From the NCBI RefSeq assembly GCF_024979255.1, contig NZ_JANLCN010000002.1, forward strand, positions 248,001 to 312,000: a stretch of 64,000 nucleotides of DNA. The letters run 5' to 3'. A program made the translations under genes and the position numbers. The stretch's first letter is position 1, and each line of letters opens with the position of its first letter. This document shows positions 37,520 through 64,000 of the stretch, in pieces. The notes below the pieces were generated by a model. That model had not been told where the DNA came from. It was given only the letters and a program-made list of their open reading frames with translations, and ran no database searches. The DNA is from Herbiconiux moechotypicola. Lineage in GTDB: Bacteria; Actinomycetota; Actinomycetes; Actinomycetales; Microbacteriaceae.

Positions 37520-39610
37520 ATGCGCGCGATAGCCCGATTCATCAGCGGACGCGGCACGGCCTGGGTGGTGCTCGGCCTCTCGGTCGTGGCGATCGGGCTG
37601 CTGTTCGCGTTGCTCCCGAAGGGGTCGAGCGACTCCTACCCGGAGTCGGGGCTGCCGGACTCCAGCGAGGCCGCCCAGGTCTCGGCCCTGCTCGAACAGT
37701 TCCCGAGCGCCGACAGCACCGCAGCCATCCTGGTCTACGACCGCGGTGGCGACGCCCTCACCGACGCCGACAAGGCCGCCGTCACGGCCAGCGCCGAGGC
37801 CCTCGCGAGCGACTCGATCGCCCCGCAGGCCGTCGTGCCCCAGTTCAGCGACGACGGCACCGCCGCCCTCGTCGCCGTGCCGCTGGACGCGGCCGAGGTC
37901 GACGACGACGTGCAGGCCGCGGCGGAGCGCATCCGCACCACCGCCGCCGACGGCCTCCCCGACGGCCTCACCGCGCTGCTCACCGGCCCGCTCGGCTTCC
38001 AGGCCGACATCGGCAACGCCTTCGCCGGAGCCGACTTCCGCCTGCTGCTGGTCACCGTGATCGTGGTGGCGGTGCTGCTCATCATCACCTACCGCAGCCC
38101 CGTGCTCTGGATCGTGCCACTCGCCGTGGTCGGCACGGCCGACGGTCTCGCCCGCATCGTGGTGACCAGCCTCGCCGAACCCCTCGGCATCACCGTCGAC
38201 GCCTCCATCGCGGGCATCCTCTCGGTGCTCGTGTTCGGCGCGGGCACCAACTACGCCCTGCTGCTCGTGGCCCGCTACCGCGAAGAGCTCACCCGGGTCG
38301 ACGACCGGCACCGCGCCATGCTCACCGCCGTCACGAGTGCCGGGCCGGCCATCGCCGCGAGCGGCGGCACCGTCGCGCTCAGCCTGCTCACGCTGCTCTT
38401 CGCCCAGCTGGCGGGCAACCGCGCGCTCGGCGTGGCCTGCGCCATCGGCGTCGCCATCGCCGTGCTCTTCGCGCTCATCGTGCTGCCCGCCGCCCTCGTG
38501 GTGTGCGGCCGTGGCCTGTTCTGGCCGTTCATCCCGCGAGTCCAGAAGGATGCTGGGGTAGGCACCGAGCACAAGGGCGTCTGGATGCGCCTCGGCCGCG
38601 GCGTGCAGCGGCGCCCGGCCGTCGTCGCCGTCGTCGCGACCCTCGGCATCGCCGCTCTGGCGCTCGGCCTGAACGGCGGGCGGGTCGGACTCTCCCAGAC
38701 CGACCAGCTCATCGGCGACCCCGACTCGGTGGTGGCCCAGCGCATCGTCGACGAGGCCTTCGGGGCCGGACTCACCGGCCAGACGGTCGTGCTCACCCCC
38801 GACGCCGCGGTCGCCGACGCGACAGCGCTCGCCGACGGCGTCGACGGCGTGGTGTCGGTGCGCGCCGGCGAGAGCCACGACGGGCTCACCCGGCTCGACC
38901 TCACCCTCGACGCCGAGCCGCAGAGCGACGAGGCCTTCACCCTCATCCAGACGCTGCGCACCGACTATGCGTCCTCGCCCGCCCCCCTCGACCAGACCCT
39001 GGTGGGCGGCAACGACGCGACCGCCCTCGACGAGAACACGGCGGCCGCAGCCGACCAGGCGCTCATCATCCCGCTCATCCTGGCGATCGTGTTCCTCATC
39101 CTGGCCCTGCTGCTGCGCTCCCTCGTGGCGCCGGTGCTGCTCATCGCGAGCGTGCTGGCCACCTTCTTCGCGAGCCTCGGCGCCTCGAACCTCATCTTCC
39201 AGAACCTGATGGGCTTCCCCGCCTTCGATGCGAACGTGGTGCTCTTCGCCTTCCTCTTCCTGGTGGCGCTGGGGGTGGACTACAACATCTTCCTCACGAC
39301 GCGGGCGCGCGAGGAGACCGTCGCCCACGGCACCCGGGAGGGCATGGTGCGCGCGCTGAGCTCGACCGGCGGGGTCATCACGAGCGCCGGCATCCTGCTC
39401 GCGGCGGTGTTCGCGGTGCTGGGGGTGCTGCCCGTGGTGGCGCTCACGCAGATCGGCGTGATCGTGTGCATCGGCGTGCTGCTCGACACCCTCGTGGTGC
39501 GCACGGTGCTCGTGCCCTCGCTGGTGTTCCTCACCGGCGACGCCTTCTGGTGGCCCTCCCACCCCGCGCGGCGGGGCTCCCAGGCGAGGGGCAATAAACT
39601 GGAGGCGTGA
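37520..39610 (+). CDS. MMPL-family transporter
   Basis: RND-superfamily exporter of about 696 aa, with two MMPL halves. Each half has one leading helix, an extracellular domain and a five-helix bundle: half one around LLLVTVIVVAVLLIITYRSP, half two around LIIPLILAIVFLILALLLRS. The later helices carry FGAGTNYALLLVARYREEL and FLVALGVDYNIFLTTRAREE, where the proton-relay Asp/Tyr motif is found. Likely substrates are lipids or hydrophobic compounds. ATG 37520 is preferred over GTG 37490, which would add ten non-conserved residues. Its stop overlaps the next gene. Confidence 0.93.
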   Translation: MRAIARFISGRGTAWVVLGLSVVAIGLLFALLPKGSSDSYPESGLPDSSEAAQVSALLEQFPSADSTAAILVYDRGGDALTDADKAAVTASAEALASDSIAPQAVVPQFSDDGTAALVAVPLDAAEVDDDVQAAAERIRTTAADGLPDGLTALLTGPLGFQADIGNAFAGADFRLLLVTVIVVAVLLIITYRSPVLWIVPLAVVGTADGLARIVVTSLAEPLGITVDASIAGILSVLVFGAGTNYALLLVARYREELTRVDDRHRAMLTAVTSAGPAIAASGGTVALSLLTLLFAQLAGNRALGVACAIGVAIAVLFALIVLPAALVVCGRGLFWPFIPRVQKDAGVGTEHKGVWMRLGRGVQRRPAVVAVVATLGIAALALGLNGGRVGLSQTDQLIGDPDSVVAQRIVDEAFGAGLTGQTVVLTPDAAVADATALADGVDGVVSVRAGESHDGLTRLDLTLDAEPQSDEAFTLIQTLRTDYASSPAPLDQTLVGGNDATALDENTAAAADQALIIPLILAIVFLILALLLRSLVAPVLLIASVLATFFASLGASNLIFQNLMGFPAFDANVVLFAFLFLVALGVDYNIFLTTRAREETVAHGTREGMVRALSSTGGVITSAGILLAAVFAVLGVLPVVALTQIGVIVCIGVLLDTLVVRTVLVPSLVFLTGDAFWWPSHPARRGSQARGNKLEA

Positions 39611-57752: not shown

Positions 57753-59042
57753 ATGCGCACCTCGCCGGCCGAAGAGCGGCCCACCCTCTCGGCCGAGCAG
57801 CAGCGCGTGTTCGACCTCGTGGAGGGCACCCGCAAGCACGTGTTCGTCACCGGCCGCGCCGGCACGGGCAAGTCGACGCTGCTCAACCACCTGTCATGGA
57901 ACACCGAGAAGCAGCTCGTGATCTCGGCCCCCACCGGGGTGGCGGCGCTCAACGTGGGCGGCCAGACCATCCACTCGCTGTTCCGCCTGCCGATCGGGGT
58001 GATCGCCGACCACGACATCGAGCAGAACGCCGAGGTGCGCAAGCTCCTCAACACCATCGACACGCTCGTGATCGACGAGGTGTCGATGGTGAACGCCGAC
58101 CTCATGGACGCGATCGACCGCTCGCTGCGGCAGGCCAGGCAGCGGCCGCTCGAGGCCTTCGGCGGGGTGCAGGTGGTGCTGTTCGGCGACCCGTACCAGC
58201 TCGCCCCGGTGCCCGGCGACGGCGACGAGCGCGCCTACTTCAGAGACCACTACCGGTCGATGTGGTTCTTCGACGCGAAGGTGTGGGAGGAGACCCAGCT
58301 CGAGATCGTGGAGCTCACCGAGATCCACCGCCAGCACGACGACGACTTCAAGTTCATGCTCAACGCGGTGCGCTTCGGCATGGTCACCAAGGAGATCGCG
58401 GATGCGCTCAATACCGCGGGGGCGCGGCCCGCGCCCACCGAAGGGGCCATCACGCTCGCCACGCGCAACGACTCCGTCAACCGCATCAACCAGGCTGCCC
58501 TCGCCCGCCTGCCCGGCCGGGTGCTGACGGCCAAGGCCGAGATCAGCGGCGACTTCGCCGGCCGCGCCTACCCCGCCGACGTGAGCCTCGAGCTGAAGAA
58601 CGGGGCGCAGGTGATGTTCCTGCGCAACGACAGCGAGGGGCGCTGGGTGAACGGGACCGTCGGCACGGTGACGAAGATCGACTCCACGGTGTGGGTCGAC
58701 GTCGACGGCGAGGTGCACGAGGTCGACCCCGTGGCCTGGGAGAAGCACCGGTACTCCTACTCCCCCGAGTCTAAGCAGCTCACCAAGGAGGTGATCGGCG
58801 AGTTCACCCAGTTCCCACTGCGGCTGGCCTGGGCCGTCACCATCCACAAGTCGCAGGGGCAGACCTACGACCAGGCCGTGGTCGACCTCGGGTCGCGGGT
58901 GTTCAGCCCCGGGCAGACATATGTGGCGCTGTCGCGGCTCACCTCGCTGGAGGGGCTGTACCTCACGCGGCCACTGCGGCCGAGCGACATCATCGTCGAC
59001 CAGTCGGTGCTCGCCTTCATGCGGCGCGCGCTGCGCCGCTGA
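57753..59042 (+). CDS. PIF1-like SF1B helicase
   Basis: The 429-aa AAA helicase has Walker A VTGRAGTGKSTLLNHL (Lys40), motif Ia SAPTGVAALNVGGQTIHSLF, Walker B TLVIDEVSMVNADLMD, motif III VVLFGDPYQLAPVPG, and motifs V/VI AWAVTIHKSQGQTYDQAVVD and YVALSRLTSLEGLYLTRP. This order is PIF1/RecD2-like. Eukaryotic Pif1 unwinds G-quadruplexes and stalled forks; a comparable role is inferred for a GC-rich genome. Divergent from the previous gene. Confidence 0.92.
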   Translation: MRTSPAEERPTLSAEQQRVFDLVEGTRKHVFVTGRAGTGKSTLLNHLSWNTEKQLVISAPTGVAALNVGGQTIHSLFRLPIGVIADHDIEQNAEVRKLLNTIDTLVIDEVSMVNADLMDAIDRSLRQARQRPLEAFGGVQVVLFGDPYQLAPVPGDGDERAYFRDHYRSMWFFDAKVWEETQLEIVELTEIHRQHDDDFKFMLNAVRFGMVTKEIADALNTAGARPAPTEGAITLATRNDSVNRINQAALARLPGRVLTAKAEISGDFAGRAYPADVSLELKNGAQVMFLRNDSEGRWVNGTVGTVTKIDSTVWVDVDGEVHEVDPVAWEKHRYSYSPESKQLTKEVIGEFTQFPLRLAWAVTIHKSQGQTYDQAVVDLGSRVFSPGQTYVALSRLTSLEGLYLTRPLRPSDIIVDQSVLAFMRRALRR

Positions 59043-59140: not shown

Positions 59141-62100
59141 ATGGCCACGCTGCTGTACAGGATCGGGCGGTTCGCGGCTCGGAGGAGCATCGCCGTCATC
59201 GTCGGCTGGGTGGTGCTGCTCGGCCTCGCGATCGGGGGTGCGCAGGCGCTCGGCGGCACGCTCACCGCCTCGTTCGCCATCCCCGGAACCGAGTCGCAGC
59301 AGGCGATCGACATGCTCGATCAGCGCTTCCCGCAGGCGGCCGGCGGTTCTGCCCGGGTCATCTACGTCGCCCCGGAGGGCGGGCAGGTGACCGACTTCCA
59401 GGACCAGATCGACGCGAACGTCACCGAGCTGGCCGCTGCGCCTCACGTCTCCGGCGTCACGGGCCCCTTCGACTCGGGTGCGAGCGGGCAGGTCAACTCC
59501 GCCGGCACCATGGCCTTCGCCACCGTGCAGTACGACGTGGCCACCGCATCCCTCACCGCCGCCGACAACGAGGCACTGCTCGCCGCCGGCGAGAAGGCGG
59601 CCACCGGCGGCCTCGAGGTGGGCTTCTCGGGGGTGACCGACCCGCCCGAGGCGGGCGTCGACTACACCGAGGCGATCGGCCTCGTGGTGGCCTTCGTGGT
59701 GCTCTTCATCACCTTCGGCTCGCTGCTGGCCGCCGGCATGCCGCTCATCACAGCCCTCGTCGGCGTGGGCGTCACCTCCACCCTCATCACCATCGCGTCG
59801 GGCTTCGCCAGCATCTCGTCGACGGCACCGCTGCTCGCCACGATGCTCGGGCTCGCGGTCGGCATCGACTATGCGCTGTTCATCGTCTCGCGACACCGCA
59901 CGCAGCTCATCCACGGCATGGACCCGAAGGAGTCCGCCGCCATCGCGGTCTCCACCGCGGGCAGCGCCGTCGTGTTCGCCGGCCTCACCGTCATCATCGC
60001 CCTGCTCGGGCTCTCCGTGGTGCAGATCCCGTTCCTCACGGTGATGGGCGTGGGCGCCGCCGTCTCGGTGGTCATCGCGGTGGTCGTGGCGCTCACGCTG
60101 CTCCCGGCGATCCTCGGTCTGCTCGGCCGCAAGCTCATCCCGAAGCCCACCTCGCGGGCAGCCCGCCGCGAGCTCGCCTCCTCCGCCCCCGACGCCGCCG
60201 GATCGCACCGAACCCTGGGGGCACGCTGGGTCGCCCTGGTCACCGCGAAACCCGTCATCACGGTCGCCGTCGTGGTGATCGGCCTCGTGGTCGTGGCCCT
60301 CCCGGCCACCTCTATGCGCCTCACCCTCCCCGACGCCGGCTACAACCCGCCGGGCACCGAGTCGCGCGACGGCTACGATCTGCTCACCGAGGGCTTCGGG
60401 CCCGGGTTCAACGGTCCGCTGCTGGTGACCGCCGACATCTCGAACATCCTCGACCTCGAGGCCGCCCGAACCGCACTCCAGAGCGAGTTCGAGGGGCTCG
60501 ACGACGTCGACTCGGTGAGCGAGGCCATCCCGAACGCGACGCTCGACATGCTCATCGTCTCGATCATCCCCGACAGCGCCCCCGACAGCGTGCAGACCGA
60601 GCAGCTCGTGCACACCATCCGGGCGCACGAGGCCGCCTTCGCCGAGAAGAACGACTTCGGCTACCAGGTCACCGGGCAGACGGCACTCGGCATCGACGTG
60701 TCGGCACGCCTGGCGGATGCCCTGCTGCCGTTCGCGCTCGTGGTGGTGGGGCTCTGCGTCATCCTGCTCACGATCGTGTTCCGCTCACTCGCCATCCCGA
60801 TCTCGGCGACCGTGGGCTACCTGCTCTCGGTGGCCGCCTCCTTCGGCATCGTCACCGCCGTCTTCGAGTGGGGATGGCTCTCCGACCTCCTCGGCGTGGC
60901 CAAGGTCGGCCCGGTGATCAGCTTCTTCCCGATCCTGCTCATGGCCGTGCTCTTCGGACTGGCCATGGACTACCAGGTCTTCCTGGTGTCACGGATGCGC
61001 GAGGAGTTCGTGAAGACCGGCGACCCGCATCAGGCAGTGCGGCACGGCTTCATCGGTGCCGCGCGCGTGGTGACCGCGGCGGCCTGCATCATGTTCTCGG
61101 TGTTCGCCTCGTTCGTGCCGGGCGGCAACGCGGTGCTGCAGCCGATCGCGCTGGGCCTGGCCGCTGGCGTGTTCATCGACGCGTTCTTGGTGCGCATGAC
61201 GTTCATCCCGGCGCTCATGATCCTGCTCGGCCGCATCGGGTGGGCACTCCCCCGCCGCCTCGGGCGCGTGCTGCCCGACGTCGATCTCGAGGGCGAGGGA
61301 GTGCGCGAGATGCTCGACGCCGTCGCTTGGCGTCCGCTCCCTGCGGGCGACGGGGGTGACGCGGGTGCGGATGCACCGGCACCGTACGCGGTCGCCGCCG
61401 AGCTCGCCGTCGTGGAGTCGGCCGCCGAGGGAGGGCTCGTGGCACCGTTCTCGGTGCGCGCCGCCTCCGGTTCGCTGGTGCTCGTCTCCGGAGGCCCCGG
61501 TACGCATCCCGAGGCCGTGGCGGCCGCGATCGCGGGCCGCCAGCGACTTCTGCGGGGGCATCTCCGCGTGCTCGACCAGCCGCAGCCGGTGCACGCGGCC
61601 GCCCTGCGACGCCACAGCGTGTTCGTGGCACGACCGGTCGAGGGCGACCTGCTCGCCGACCGCATCCCGCTGCGCCGCCTACCGGTGGGTGCGGCCGGAG
61701 TGCTCGAGTGGCTCGAACGGGAGCTCGGTGCCGAGCTCGGTGAGCTCTGGGGCGACGACCTGGCAGGCGAGTGGATGCGCCAGGTGGCGGTCGCCGTGGC
61801 CGCGGCGGGCGAGGTGGCCGGCAGGTCGCGCTCCGCCGGCCGCACGCGCCTGCGACTCGTGGCGATCGACGCCACCGCGCTCTCGACGACCCAGGTACAG
61901 CACGTGCTCGACGCGGTGGAGCCTTCGCTGCCGGCCGGAGCGACGCTCGTGGTGGCGCACCACGGCGCCGCGACGCTGAGCGCCGGGGCGCGCACCGTCG
62001 AGGTTGTCGCACTGGAGGCGATCGCTCCCCCTCCCCCGCTGCCGCCGGGTGGCTCCGCTCCCGACGGGCCCGATGACGTCCCCGAGGCCGACGATCCCGA

Positions 62101-62149
62101 CGCCCCCGACCAGTCCCCGTCCGCACCGCGAGAGGAAGTGACCGCATGA
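59141..62149 (+). CDS. MMPL-family transporter with C-terminal degenerate ABC-ATPase-like domain
   Basis: The 1002-aa protein has a normal MMPL part in residues 1-710, with RND helices such as LGLAVGIDYALFIVSRHRTQ and LLMAVLFGLAMDYQVFLVSRMREEF. A further 290 residues follow. They read like an ABC nucleotide-binding domain with lost motifs: SGSLVLVSGGPGTHPEAVAA in the Walker A place, GDDLAGEWMRQVAVAVAAA in the signature place, LRLVAIDATALSTTQVQHVL in the Walker B place and LVVAHHGA in the H-loop place. The protein ends in a Pro/Asp-rich tail. Its stop overlaps the YhgE/Pip gene. Confidence 0.9.
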   Translation: MATLLYRIGRFAARRSIAVIVGWVVLLGLAIGGAQALGGTLTASFAIPGTESQQAIDMLDQRFPQAAGGSARVIYVAPEGGQVTDFQDQIDANVTELAAAPHVSGVTGPFDSGASGQVNSAGTMAFATVQYDVATASLTAADNEALLAAGEKAATGGLEVGFSGVTDPPEAGVDYTEAIGLVVAFVVLFITFGSLLAAGMPLITALVGVGVTSTLITIASGFASISSTAPLLATMLGLAVGIDYALFIVSRHRTQLIHGMDPKESAAIAVSTAGSAVVFAGLTVIIALLGLSVVQIPFLTVMGVGAAVSVVIAVVVALTLLPAILGLLGRKLIPKPTSRAARRELASSAPDAAGSHRTLGARWVALVTAKPVITVAVVVIGLVVVALPATSMRLTLPDAGYNPPGTESRDGYDLLTEGFGPGFNGPLLVTADISNILDLEAARTALQSEFEGLDDVDSVSEAIPNATLDMLIVSIIPDSAPDSVQTEQLVHTIRAHEAAFAEKNDFGYQVTGQTALGIDVSARLADALLPFALVVVGLCVILLTIVFRSLAIPISATVGYLLSVAASFGIVTAVFEWGWLSDLLGVAKVGPVISFFPILLMAVLFGLAMDYQVFLVSRMREEFVKTGDPHQAVRHGFIGAARVVTAAACIMFSVFASFVPGGNAVLQPIALGLAAGVFIDAFLVRMTFIPALMILLGRIGWALPRRLGRVLPDVDLEGEGVREMLDAVAWRPLPAGDGGDAGADAPAPYAVAAELAVVESAAEGGLVAPFSVRAASGSLVLVSGGPGTHPEAVAAAIAGRQRLLRGHLRVLDQPQPVHAAALRRHSVFVARPVEGDLLADRIPLRRLPVGAAGVLEWLERELGAELGELWGDDLAGEWMRQVAVAVAAAGEVAGRSRSAGRTRLRLVAIDATALSTTQVQHVLDAVEPSLPAGATLVVAHHGAATLSAGARTVEVVALEAIAPPPPLPPGGSAPDGPDDVPEADDPDAPDQSPSAPREEVTA

Positions 62150-64000
62150 CCAGCCTCCGTTCCCTCGTGAGCCGCGGAGACGGCGGGGTGCTCTCCCCCA
62201 CCGCGCGTCGCGTGGCCATCGTGCTCGCCGTGCTCACCCCGCTCGTCGTCGCCGGTGTCGCCGTCACGGCGGTGCGCGGCACGGATGCGGCGGCGGCCGG
62301 CTCCACCGGCCCCTCGGACTCCGCGTCGACCACGCCGGTCACCTCTCCCGAGCTGCCCGCCGCCGTCGTGAACGGCGACCAGCTGGTGTACGTGGGCGAC
62401 GACGGCACCGTCACGCCCGCCGCCTCCGACGGCTCGGGCACCGGAACGCCGGTGCTGGCCGGCAAGCTCCTCGTGAGCGAGCTGACCTCGGGCGACTCGG
62501 GTGAGGGCTTCACGTGGACCGTCACCGACGCCGACACCGCCTCGAGCGGCCTCGCCTCGGGCGAGTTCGCCGCGGTGGTGACCATCCCGGAGGACTTCTC
62601 GGCGTCCTACGCCTCCCTCGGGGGCGACTCGCCGGTGCAGGCGCAACTGCAGGTCGAGACGAACGGTGCCGGCAGCTACGTCACCGGTCTGCTCGCCTCG
62701 GCGCTCTCCACCAACCTGCAAGAGGCTCTCTCCGATCAGGCGACGAAACAGTTCGTGACGGGCTTGCTCGCGGGCTTCACCACCCTCAACAGCCAGCTCG
62801 GCGAAGCGGCCACGGGAGCCGGGCAGCTCGCCGCGGGTGCGTCAGAGCTCGCGGGCTACACCGGCGAGCTCGCCTCGGGGCTGGCCACCGCCGCCGGGGG
62901 TGCCGCCGAACTCAACGGGGCGACGCAGGAGCTCGCGGTCGGGATGCGCGCCATCGCCGACGGCACGGCCGATCTCCCCGGATACGCCGACCTCATCGCG
63001 GCCGGGTCCGACGGCGTGACCACGGGCATCGGCGTGCTCACCGCACGGCTGGCCGAGGAGACCGCGGCCAGCGCCGCGATCGACGCCCGGCAGCACCAGC
63101 TCGAGAGCGACATCGCGGCTCTGAGCGCGCAGGTGCCCGACCTCTCCCCCGCCGAGATCCAGGCCCAGCTCGCCGGGCTGCAGAGCCAGGCCGCGAGCAT
63201 CCGCGACGCCTCCTTCGCCGTCACGGCCGGCCTCGGCCTCGACGCCCTCGGCGTCACCGCCCTGCAGGGCTTCTCGGCCGAGGTGAGCTCGGGGGCCACC
63301 CAATTCGCGACCGACCTGCCCCTGCTCACCACCACGCTCAGCGACGTCGCCGGTGGCACCGAGCAGCTCGCCACGGGCACCAGCGGACTCGCATCGGGTC
63401 TCGGTGAGCTCTCGACCGCCGCCACCGGTCTCGCGGGTGGCTCGACCGAACTCGCCACGAACATGGGCGCCCTCGCCTCCGGGCTCGACGAGGCGGTCGC
63501 GGCCATCCCGAGCTACACCGAAGCGCAGCAGGACTCCATCTCGACGGTCGTCACCGAGCCCGTCGTCACCGATCAGAGCGACCTGGGTGCGCCCCCTACC
63601 ACCGCGGGCGCGATCGCCGCGGTCGCGGTACCGCTCGCGCTGTGGATCGGCGCCTTCGCGATCTACCTGCTCCTGGTGCCGTTCGGGCGCCGCGAGCTGG
63701 CCTCGACCGCGTCGACGTTCCGCGTGGTGGTCTCGTCGCTCGTGCCGGCGGCGGTGCTCGCCCTGGTGCAGGCGGCGGTGATCGCGGTGGCGCTGTTCGT
63801 GGTGGGTGCGCATCCCGCCCACGCGGTGGGGAGCATCCTGTTCGCCTTCGTGATGGCGATCAGTTTCGTGATGCTGCACCAGGGTCTCGTGGCGCTGTTC
63901 GGCCTCGCGGGACGGCTCGTGTCGCTCGCCTTCGTGGTGGTGCAGGTCGCGGCGGCGGCCGTCATCCTGCCGAGCGGGCTGAGCGCACCGTTCTACACCG
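62146..64000 (+). CDS. YhgE/Pip-type ABC-2 membrane protein (3' end outside window)
   Basis: The coding region starts ATG 62146 (MTSLRSLVSRGDGGVLSPTA) and stays open to the window end, about 618 codons. It has one N-terminal helix, an extracellular part rich in Ala/Gly/Ser with repeated LAAGASELA, GGTEQLATGTSGLASGL-type segments that look like coiled coil, and a run of C-terminal helices starting near ALWIGAFAIYLLLVPFG. This is the YhgE/Pip layout (phage infection protein and ABC-2 permease relatives). Coupled to the MMPL gene by ATGA. Confidence 0.85.
   Translation, partial: MTSLRSLVSRGDGGVLSPTARRVAIVLAVLTPLVVAGVAVTAVRGTDAAAAGSTGPSDSASTTPVTSPELPAAVVNGDQLVYVGDDGTVTPAASDGSGTGTPVLAGKLLVSELTSGDSGEGFTWTVTDADTASSGLASGEFAAVVTIPEDFSASYASLGGDSPVQAQLQVETNGAGSYVTGLLASALSTNLQEALSDQATKQFVTGLLAGFTTLNSQLGEAATGAGQLAAGASELAGYTGELASGLATAAGGAAELNGATQELAVGMRAIADGTADLPGYADLIAAGSDGVTTGIGVLTARLAEETAASAAIDARQHQLESDIAALSAQVPDLSPAEIQAQLAGLQSQAASIRDASFAVTAGLGLDALGVTALQGFSAEVSSGATQFATDLPLLTTTLSDVAGGTEQLATGTSGLASGLGELSTAATGLAGGSTELATNMGALASGLDEAVAAIPSYTEAQQDSISTVVTEPVVTDQSDLGAPPTTAGAIAAVAVPLALWIGAFAIYLLLVPFGRRELASTASTFRVVVSSLVPAAVLALVQAAVIAVALFVVGAHPAHAVGSILFAFVMAISFVMLHQGLVALFGLAGRLVSLAFVVVQVAAAAVILPSGLSAPFYT

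Follow-up and report, generated by a model that had tools for sequence, protein, structure and literature searches.

A degenerate ABC nucleotide-binding domain fused to an MMPL/RND transporter and linked to a YhgE/Pip-type permease gene in Herbiconiux moechotypicola

In the 64,000-nucleotide stretch of the Herbiconiux moechotypicola genome analysed here (the window), one forward-strand gene (59141..62149) encodes a 1002-residue MMPL transporter of the resistance-nodulation-division (RND) kind that carries at its C-terminus a degenerate nucleotide-binding domain (NBD) of the ATP-binding cassette (ABC) type, hereafter the pseudo-NBD. The next gene on the same strand (62146..64000) encodes a YhgE/Pip-type ABC-2 permease of 682 residues, whose last 194 bases lie beyond the window end. 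The pair reads as a hybrid of an RND pump, a dead ABC NBD and an ABC-2 permease, in which the pseudo-ATPase character of the tail is supported and the mechanism discussed below is a proposal. Export by ABC transporters and export by RND transporters are regarded as separately powered processes; with an apparently intact RND pump joined to a dead ABC motor in one conserved protein, and an ABC-2 permease encoded alongside, the idea of a proton-driven or proton-coupled ABC-type permease becomes testable. YhgE/Pip proteins, which are poorly understood, would also gain a partner and a candidate source of energy, and the recurrence of the pairing in many related bacteria hints that the channel may draw on another kind of power. 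Judged by titles and the starts of abstracts, no paper listed from the open-access literature describes the module, and papers mentioning both MMPL and YhgE do not discuss the fusion in the parts available.

The pump half was recognized from the start as an MMPL protein, and it matches PF03176 with 268.8 bits (cut-off 20.5, E 7.7e-80). Its core (residues 1-705, 59141..61255) consists of two halves with family matches and belongs to the same family as MmpL3, MmpL4 and MmpL5, with both Asp-Tyr relay pairs present: Asp243-Tyr244 in transmembrane helix (TM) 4 (GIDY, 241-244; 59867..59872) and Asp610-Tyr611 in TM10 (AMDY, 608-611; 60968..60973). Across 101 full-length fused proteins, the TM4 pattern is found in 100 and the TM10 pattern in all 101. 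The MmpL3/4/5 source assigns these residues their role and names D256, Y257, D645 and Y646 of MmpL3 as its proton relay (PMC11524445). The pump half of the fusion looks intact, and proton coupling is predicted from the relay residues. The window protein differs from MmpL3, MmpL4 and MmpL5 in the NBD-like domain that follows the core and in the linked YhgE gene; none of these three is known to end in an NBD.

The extension begins at residue 711 with a conserved junction, LPxxDxEG...W, and a linker to the NBD (61271..61378); junction positions P2, D5, E7, G8 and W20 are invariant in 35 aligned rows. The preliminary description had read the whole extension, from 61270, as an ABC NBD. Its presence stands, whereas the in-frame start is 61271 and the NBD fold spans only residues 747-961 or so (about 215 residues, 61379..62023), being followed by a Pro/Asp-rich, fast-changing tail of about 41 residues with low model confidence (62024..62146). 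Within the domain, the motifs named in that description follow the order of an ABC NBD, at residues 783, 874, 907 and 938. The predicted structure was identified by Foldseek as an ABC NBD fold, CydDC being among the matches listed, and the top matches in a viral fold library were general ABC proteins only. Homologous extensions are present in relatives across the order, and for members such as P0003, a lysine-keeping relative, domain databases would give MMPL plus ABC_tran, so that the architecture may already be visible in public annotation. By predicted fold and descent, these data support membership of the ABC NBD superfamily, an assignment that draws on relatives, profile and predicted fold rather than on a single-sequence family search. 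The profile match and the predicted fold led us to reject both a coincidental order of motifs and a fold of another kind as the source of the extension. Neither result named beforehand as refuting the reading, a predicted structure other than the ABC ATPase fold or unrelated extensions in relatives, was obtained.

Compared with ABC NBDs such as FtsE, LolD, CbiO and MlaF (PF00005), the window domain shares the order of elements, the predicted fold and a profile match, but it lacks the Walker A lysine, the signature and the catalytic glutamate, and it forms part of an RND pump protein where those NBDs serve as free ATPases. Walker A reads SGGPGTHPE (61487..61513), with no GxxxxGK[ST] pattern; the signature region has become LAGEW (61760..61774), LSGGQ not being found in the window domain; and Walker B, VAIDAT (61859..61876), keeps its Asp and has Ala at the catalytic-Glu column. 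All three losses had been noted by eye and hold in the alignment. The H-loop-like VAHHGA (61952..61969) is a different case: the His is present in the window, as described, but AHHG, present in the 16 Herbiconiux orthologue rows, is missing from the remaining 19 of the 35 aligned rows, and we therefore rejected the His as a sign of function. Of 110 distinct fused domains, one keeps GxxxxGK[ST], five have Glu at the catalytic column and 86 retain the Walker B Asp; two further lysine-keeping domains from another family of the class (L180 and L186) bring the total to 3/112, in counts that leave out nine further class genomes with strong fused-type matches. Taken together, the window pseudo-NBD looks catalytically dead.

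Two observations concern the form of the domain. All 16 Herbiconiux orthologue rows share the pattern G-x-x-x-T-[HN]-P-x-A-V where the P-loop used to be, and this conservation points to a new structural role for the segment. Short fused domains of about 200 residues occur at seven loci (L040, L041, L042, L043, L044, L045 and L049); most of the helices from the Q-loop to Walker B appear to be missing from them, yet the YhgE neighbour is kept.

The linkage between the fused pump and YhgE was assessed at loci chosen without regard to YhgE, with a profile that was seeded with the YhgE of the window's genome and iterated over the retrieved open reading frames (ORFs) rather than drawn from a curated library, and with an independent check besides. 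Among distinct fused MMPLs with 850 residues or more, 97 of 99 have YhgE next on the same strand, and the two exceptions (L129 and L123) lie at contig ends, with a partial YhgE visible at L123. In 79 of these 97 the MMPL stop shares four bases with a potential start codon, as in the window, where the ATGA overlap given in the preliminary description is confirmed, the stop sharing bases with the ATG at 62146. In contrast, none of 20 control loci, chosen for an unfused MMPL with over 4 kb of sequence behind it, has YhgE in that position; at one of them a weak YhgE-like match (4.4e-6) lies some 3.6 kb off on the opposite strand. Two unfused controls, L217 and L222 (ORFs of 757 and 754 residues), give weak scores against the domain profile (6e-4 and 1e-4), probably through the junction. 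The extension and the downstream YhgE gene, whose co-occurrence had been put forward as a check, adjoin wherever the contig permits a view, and gene linkage supports an MMPL-YhgE module.

The full partner protein exceeds the TIGR03062 cut-off (126.6 bits against 102.2) and that of PF12698, in agreement with its first description as YhgE/Pip-type and ABC-2-like. It remains below the TIGR03061 cut-off (78.2 bits against 96.15, E 5.2e-22), and we therefore label it YhgE/Pip-type, a divergent relative, with YhgE as shorthand; the piece within the window matches both TIGR profiles below cut-off. The PF12698 match and a predicted type V exporter fold point to an ABC-2-type permease, modelled with an extracytoplasmic domain and a long coiled coil. 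Its profile finds mainly coiled-coil and repeat proteins among Protein Data Bank (PDB) sequences, and its N-terminus weakly resembles the type VII secretion protein EsaA (TIGR03929, E 5.7e-8, 32.5 bits against a curated cut-off of 122). No YhgE/Pip member, the Lactococcus phage-infection protein included, is known to have been described together with an RND pump or NBD partner, and no paper of that kind was among those listed by the literature searches. Pip homologues (TC 9.B.74) include ABC-2 superfamily proteins, according to PMC3924187.

With regard to conservation, a match covering the extension was found in 15/15 sampled genus relatives. Across 16 Herbiconiux orthologues (120 pairs), the median ratio of non-synonymous to synonymous substitution rates (dN/dS) is lowest in the core (0.262), rises through the linker (0.321) and the pseudo-NBD (0.358), and is highest in the tail (0.656), so the pseudo-NBD is under purifying selection in this genus. 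In the order survey, 91 listed rows from 89/297 genomes start at the MMPL junction (profile position 1) and cover ten coded families; 89/297, a manual count on the listed rows, is a lower bound because the survey profile misses the window's own copy, and the survey also matched ordinary ABC ATPases (197/297 genomes at 1e-8). At a strict threshold of 1e-38, strong fused-type matches appear in 30/394 genomes of the class sample (coded families f1, f7, f9, f45, f57 and f35) and, among the 198 genomes of the phylum sample, in the window's genome only. Of 228 plasmid records with MMPL relatives, none covers 80% of the query. The window's genome holds a second MMPL-pseudo-NBD plus YhgE pair (L035:5891-11433, contig C34), whose extension is nearer to the standard NBD layout (TGETVSRRLLGAAIAGRI, LGELSP).

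The origin of the domain becomes clearer from YhgE loci without a fused pump. At five same-order loci lacking MMPL (L159-L163), a free-standing NBD-like gene precedes YhgE, with an intact P-loop in four. The class YhgE survey gave matches in 66/197 genomes, and in 20 regions picked from its strong matches (L165-L184) an NBD-like gene lies directly upstream of YhgE in 18, being free-standing in 17 and fused in one; none was found in that position at L181 and L183. By manual count over the 23 free-standing partners, the lysine is kept in 4 and replaced by Arg, Gln or His in 15 whose sequence is P-loop-like in other respects; the remaining 4 have diverged further. The motif scan flagged no LSGGQ-like motif among the partners of these regions. 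From their sequences, they may form a family of ATPase-defective NBD proteins. An ABC ATPase had been named in the preliminary description as the usual partner of YhgE; the partner is NBD-like, as it held, but in this class it is mostly a degenerate NBD rather than an ordinary ATPase. A third YhgE in the window's genome (L177:3971-6727, contig C12) follows a strongly degenerate free-standing NBD-like protein.

In the domain tree, fused and free-standing domains form one clade (branch support 98) relative to a small outgroup, five ordinary ABC ATPases encoded at these loci; judging from these sequences, the pseudo-NBD and the NBD-like partners of YhgE come from one common stock. The domain trees lack L043, L105 and L092. 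The MMPL-core tree (60 rows) places 39 fused rows in one clade (support 100) against 21 unfused, L180 and L210 being the same gene and 38 fused rows thus distinct, and no tail-less MMPL falls inside the fused clade. The core tree therefore indicates one fusion; the domain tree prefers otherwise, so that one or two fusions may have occurred, and a single fused clade is not rejected by the approximately unbiased test on the domain tree (p = 0.076; 0.062 in an earlier row set). With lysine-keeping fused proteins nested in the clade, our reading of the tree, rather than a computation, gives at least three lysine losses, barring regain or domain exchange, and such an exchange is possible at L180/L186.

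The previous results lead to a proposal in which MMPL and YhgE constitute one export module, with the dead NBD joining pump and permease, power coming from protons and an envelope amphiphile as cargo; we hold this for somewhat probable. An ABC-2 permease normally sits on two NBDs, and in this gene pair nothing but the tail of the pump is NBD-like. Mechanistically, the pseudo-NBD at the cytosolic C-terminus of the proton-driven pump would take the place of the ATPase under YhgE by docking on its cytosolic face, and the docked tail would hold pump and permease as one machine. Since the ATP site is gone and the proton relay is kept, the proton motive force would be the most likely power source, and the kin on both sides (MmpL, ABCG/ABCA) would make an envelope-directed amphiphile, for instance a lipid, a likely cargo. 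As an outside hint, a study of Saccharopolyspora hirsuta on cholesterol reports the YhgE/Pip gene F1721_04135 up 3.82-fold and the MMPL gene F1721_04140 up 3.33-fold (PMC9782250); their locus tags are neighbouring. A broader scenario, which we regard as tentative, is that a class of actinobacterial ABC-2 permeases switched power source: the YhgE partners would have lost their ATPase, the NBD would, in one large lineage, have been grafted once onto an RND pump to give an RND-ABC chimera, the proton motive force would act through the pseudo-NBD, and the Walker A lysine would have been lost repeatedly.

Several results weigh against this interpretation. The joint complex is predicted from gene linkage. 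The window extension alone has no Pfam or NCBIfam match, the paralogue-group profile finds four weak unrelated chains and no ABC protein among PDB sequences, and the Foldseek template-modelling scores of the domain are modest (0.36-0.45 by query length, among the 50 matches listed). The YhgE model reaches a predicted template-modelling score of only 0.56, with no Foldseek match at 1e-3 or better. The pseudo-NBD evolves faster than the core, and the domain tree prefers to place the lysine-keeping fused L180/L186 beside lysine-keeping free-standing partners. Finally, the free-standing partners are mostly lysine-less even though they have no fused MMPL, so loss of the ATPase motifs alone does not mean takeover by the RND pump.

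Alternatively, the pseudo-NBD could bind nucleotide without hydrolysing it, as a sensor that gates pump or permease. The 15 free-standing partners with a P-loop-like sequence, the frequent Walker B Asp and the three lysine-keeping fused proteins fit such a role, but the window's orthologue group, where GxxxT[HN]P has taken the place of the P-loop, and the short forms without much of the Q-loop to Walker B stretch do not, and we consider it unlikely. ABC transporters offer well-known examples of NBD pairs that are asymmetric, and together with the CydDC match these leave some room for an ATP-driven complex in which the pseudo-NBD pairs with a genuine ATPase encoded elsewhere. However, having lost its signature, the domain could hardly complete a partner's site, and an ORF with P-loop and LSGGQ-like motif occurs in just 8 of 104 surveyed loci (same strand as YhgE in two; the motif scan may miss some), making this explanation improbable. 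Least probable, by a little, is a decaying relic or mere linker co-transcribed only for regulation: its faster evolution and the 21-36% identity to rows outside the orthologue group would suit decay, but the junction-starting rows in ten families, the purifying selection in Herbiconiux, the adjoining YhgE and the fused clade free of tail-less MMPLs do not. Compared with these, the proton-powered module is the reading we prefer.

Upstream of the fused gene, a forward-strand gene (57753-59042) ends 98 bases before the MMPL start; by eye and with no search made, we take it to encode a P-loop helicase of the PIF1/RecD kind (GRAGTGKST). The window also contains a second, unfused MMPL-like protein (37526-39553, forward strand, an open frame of 707 residues) with 29% identity to the fused protein (E 3.2e-31).
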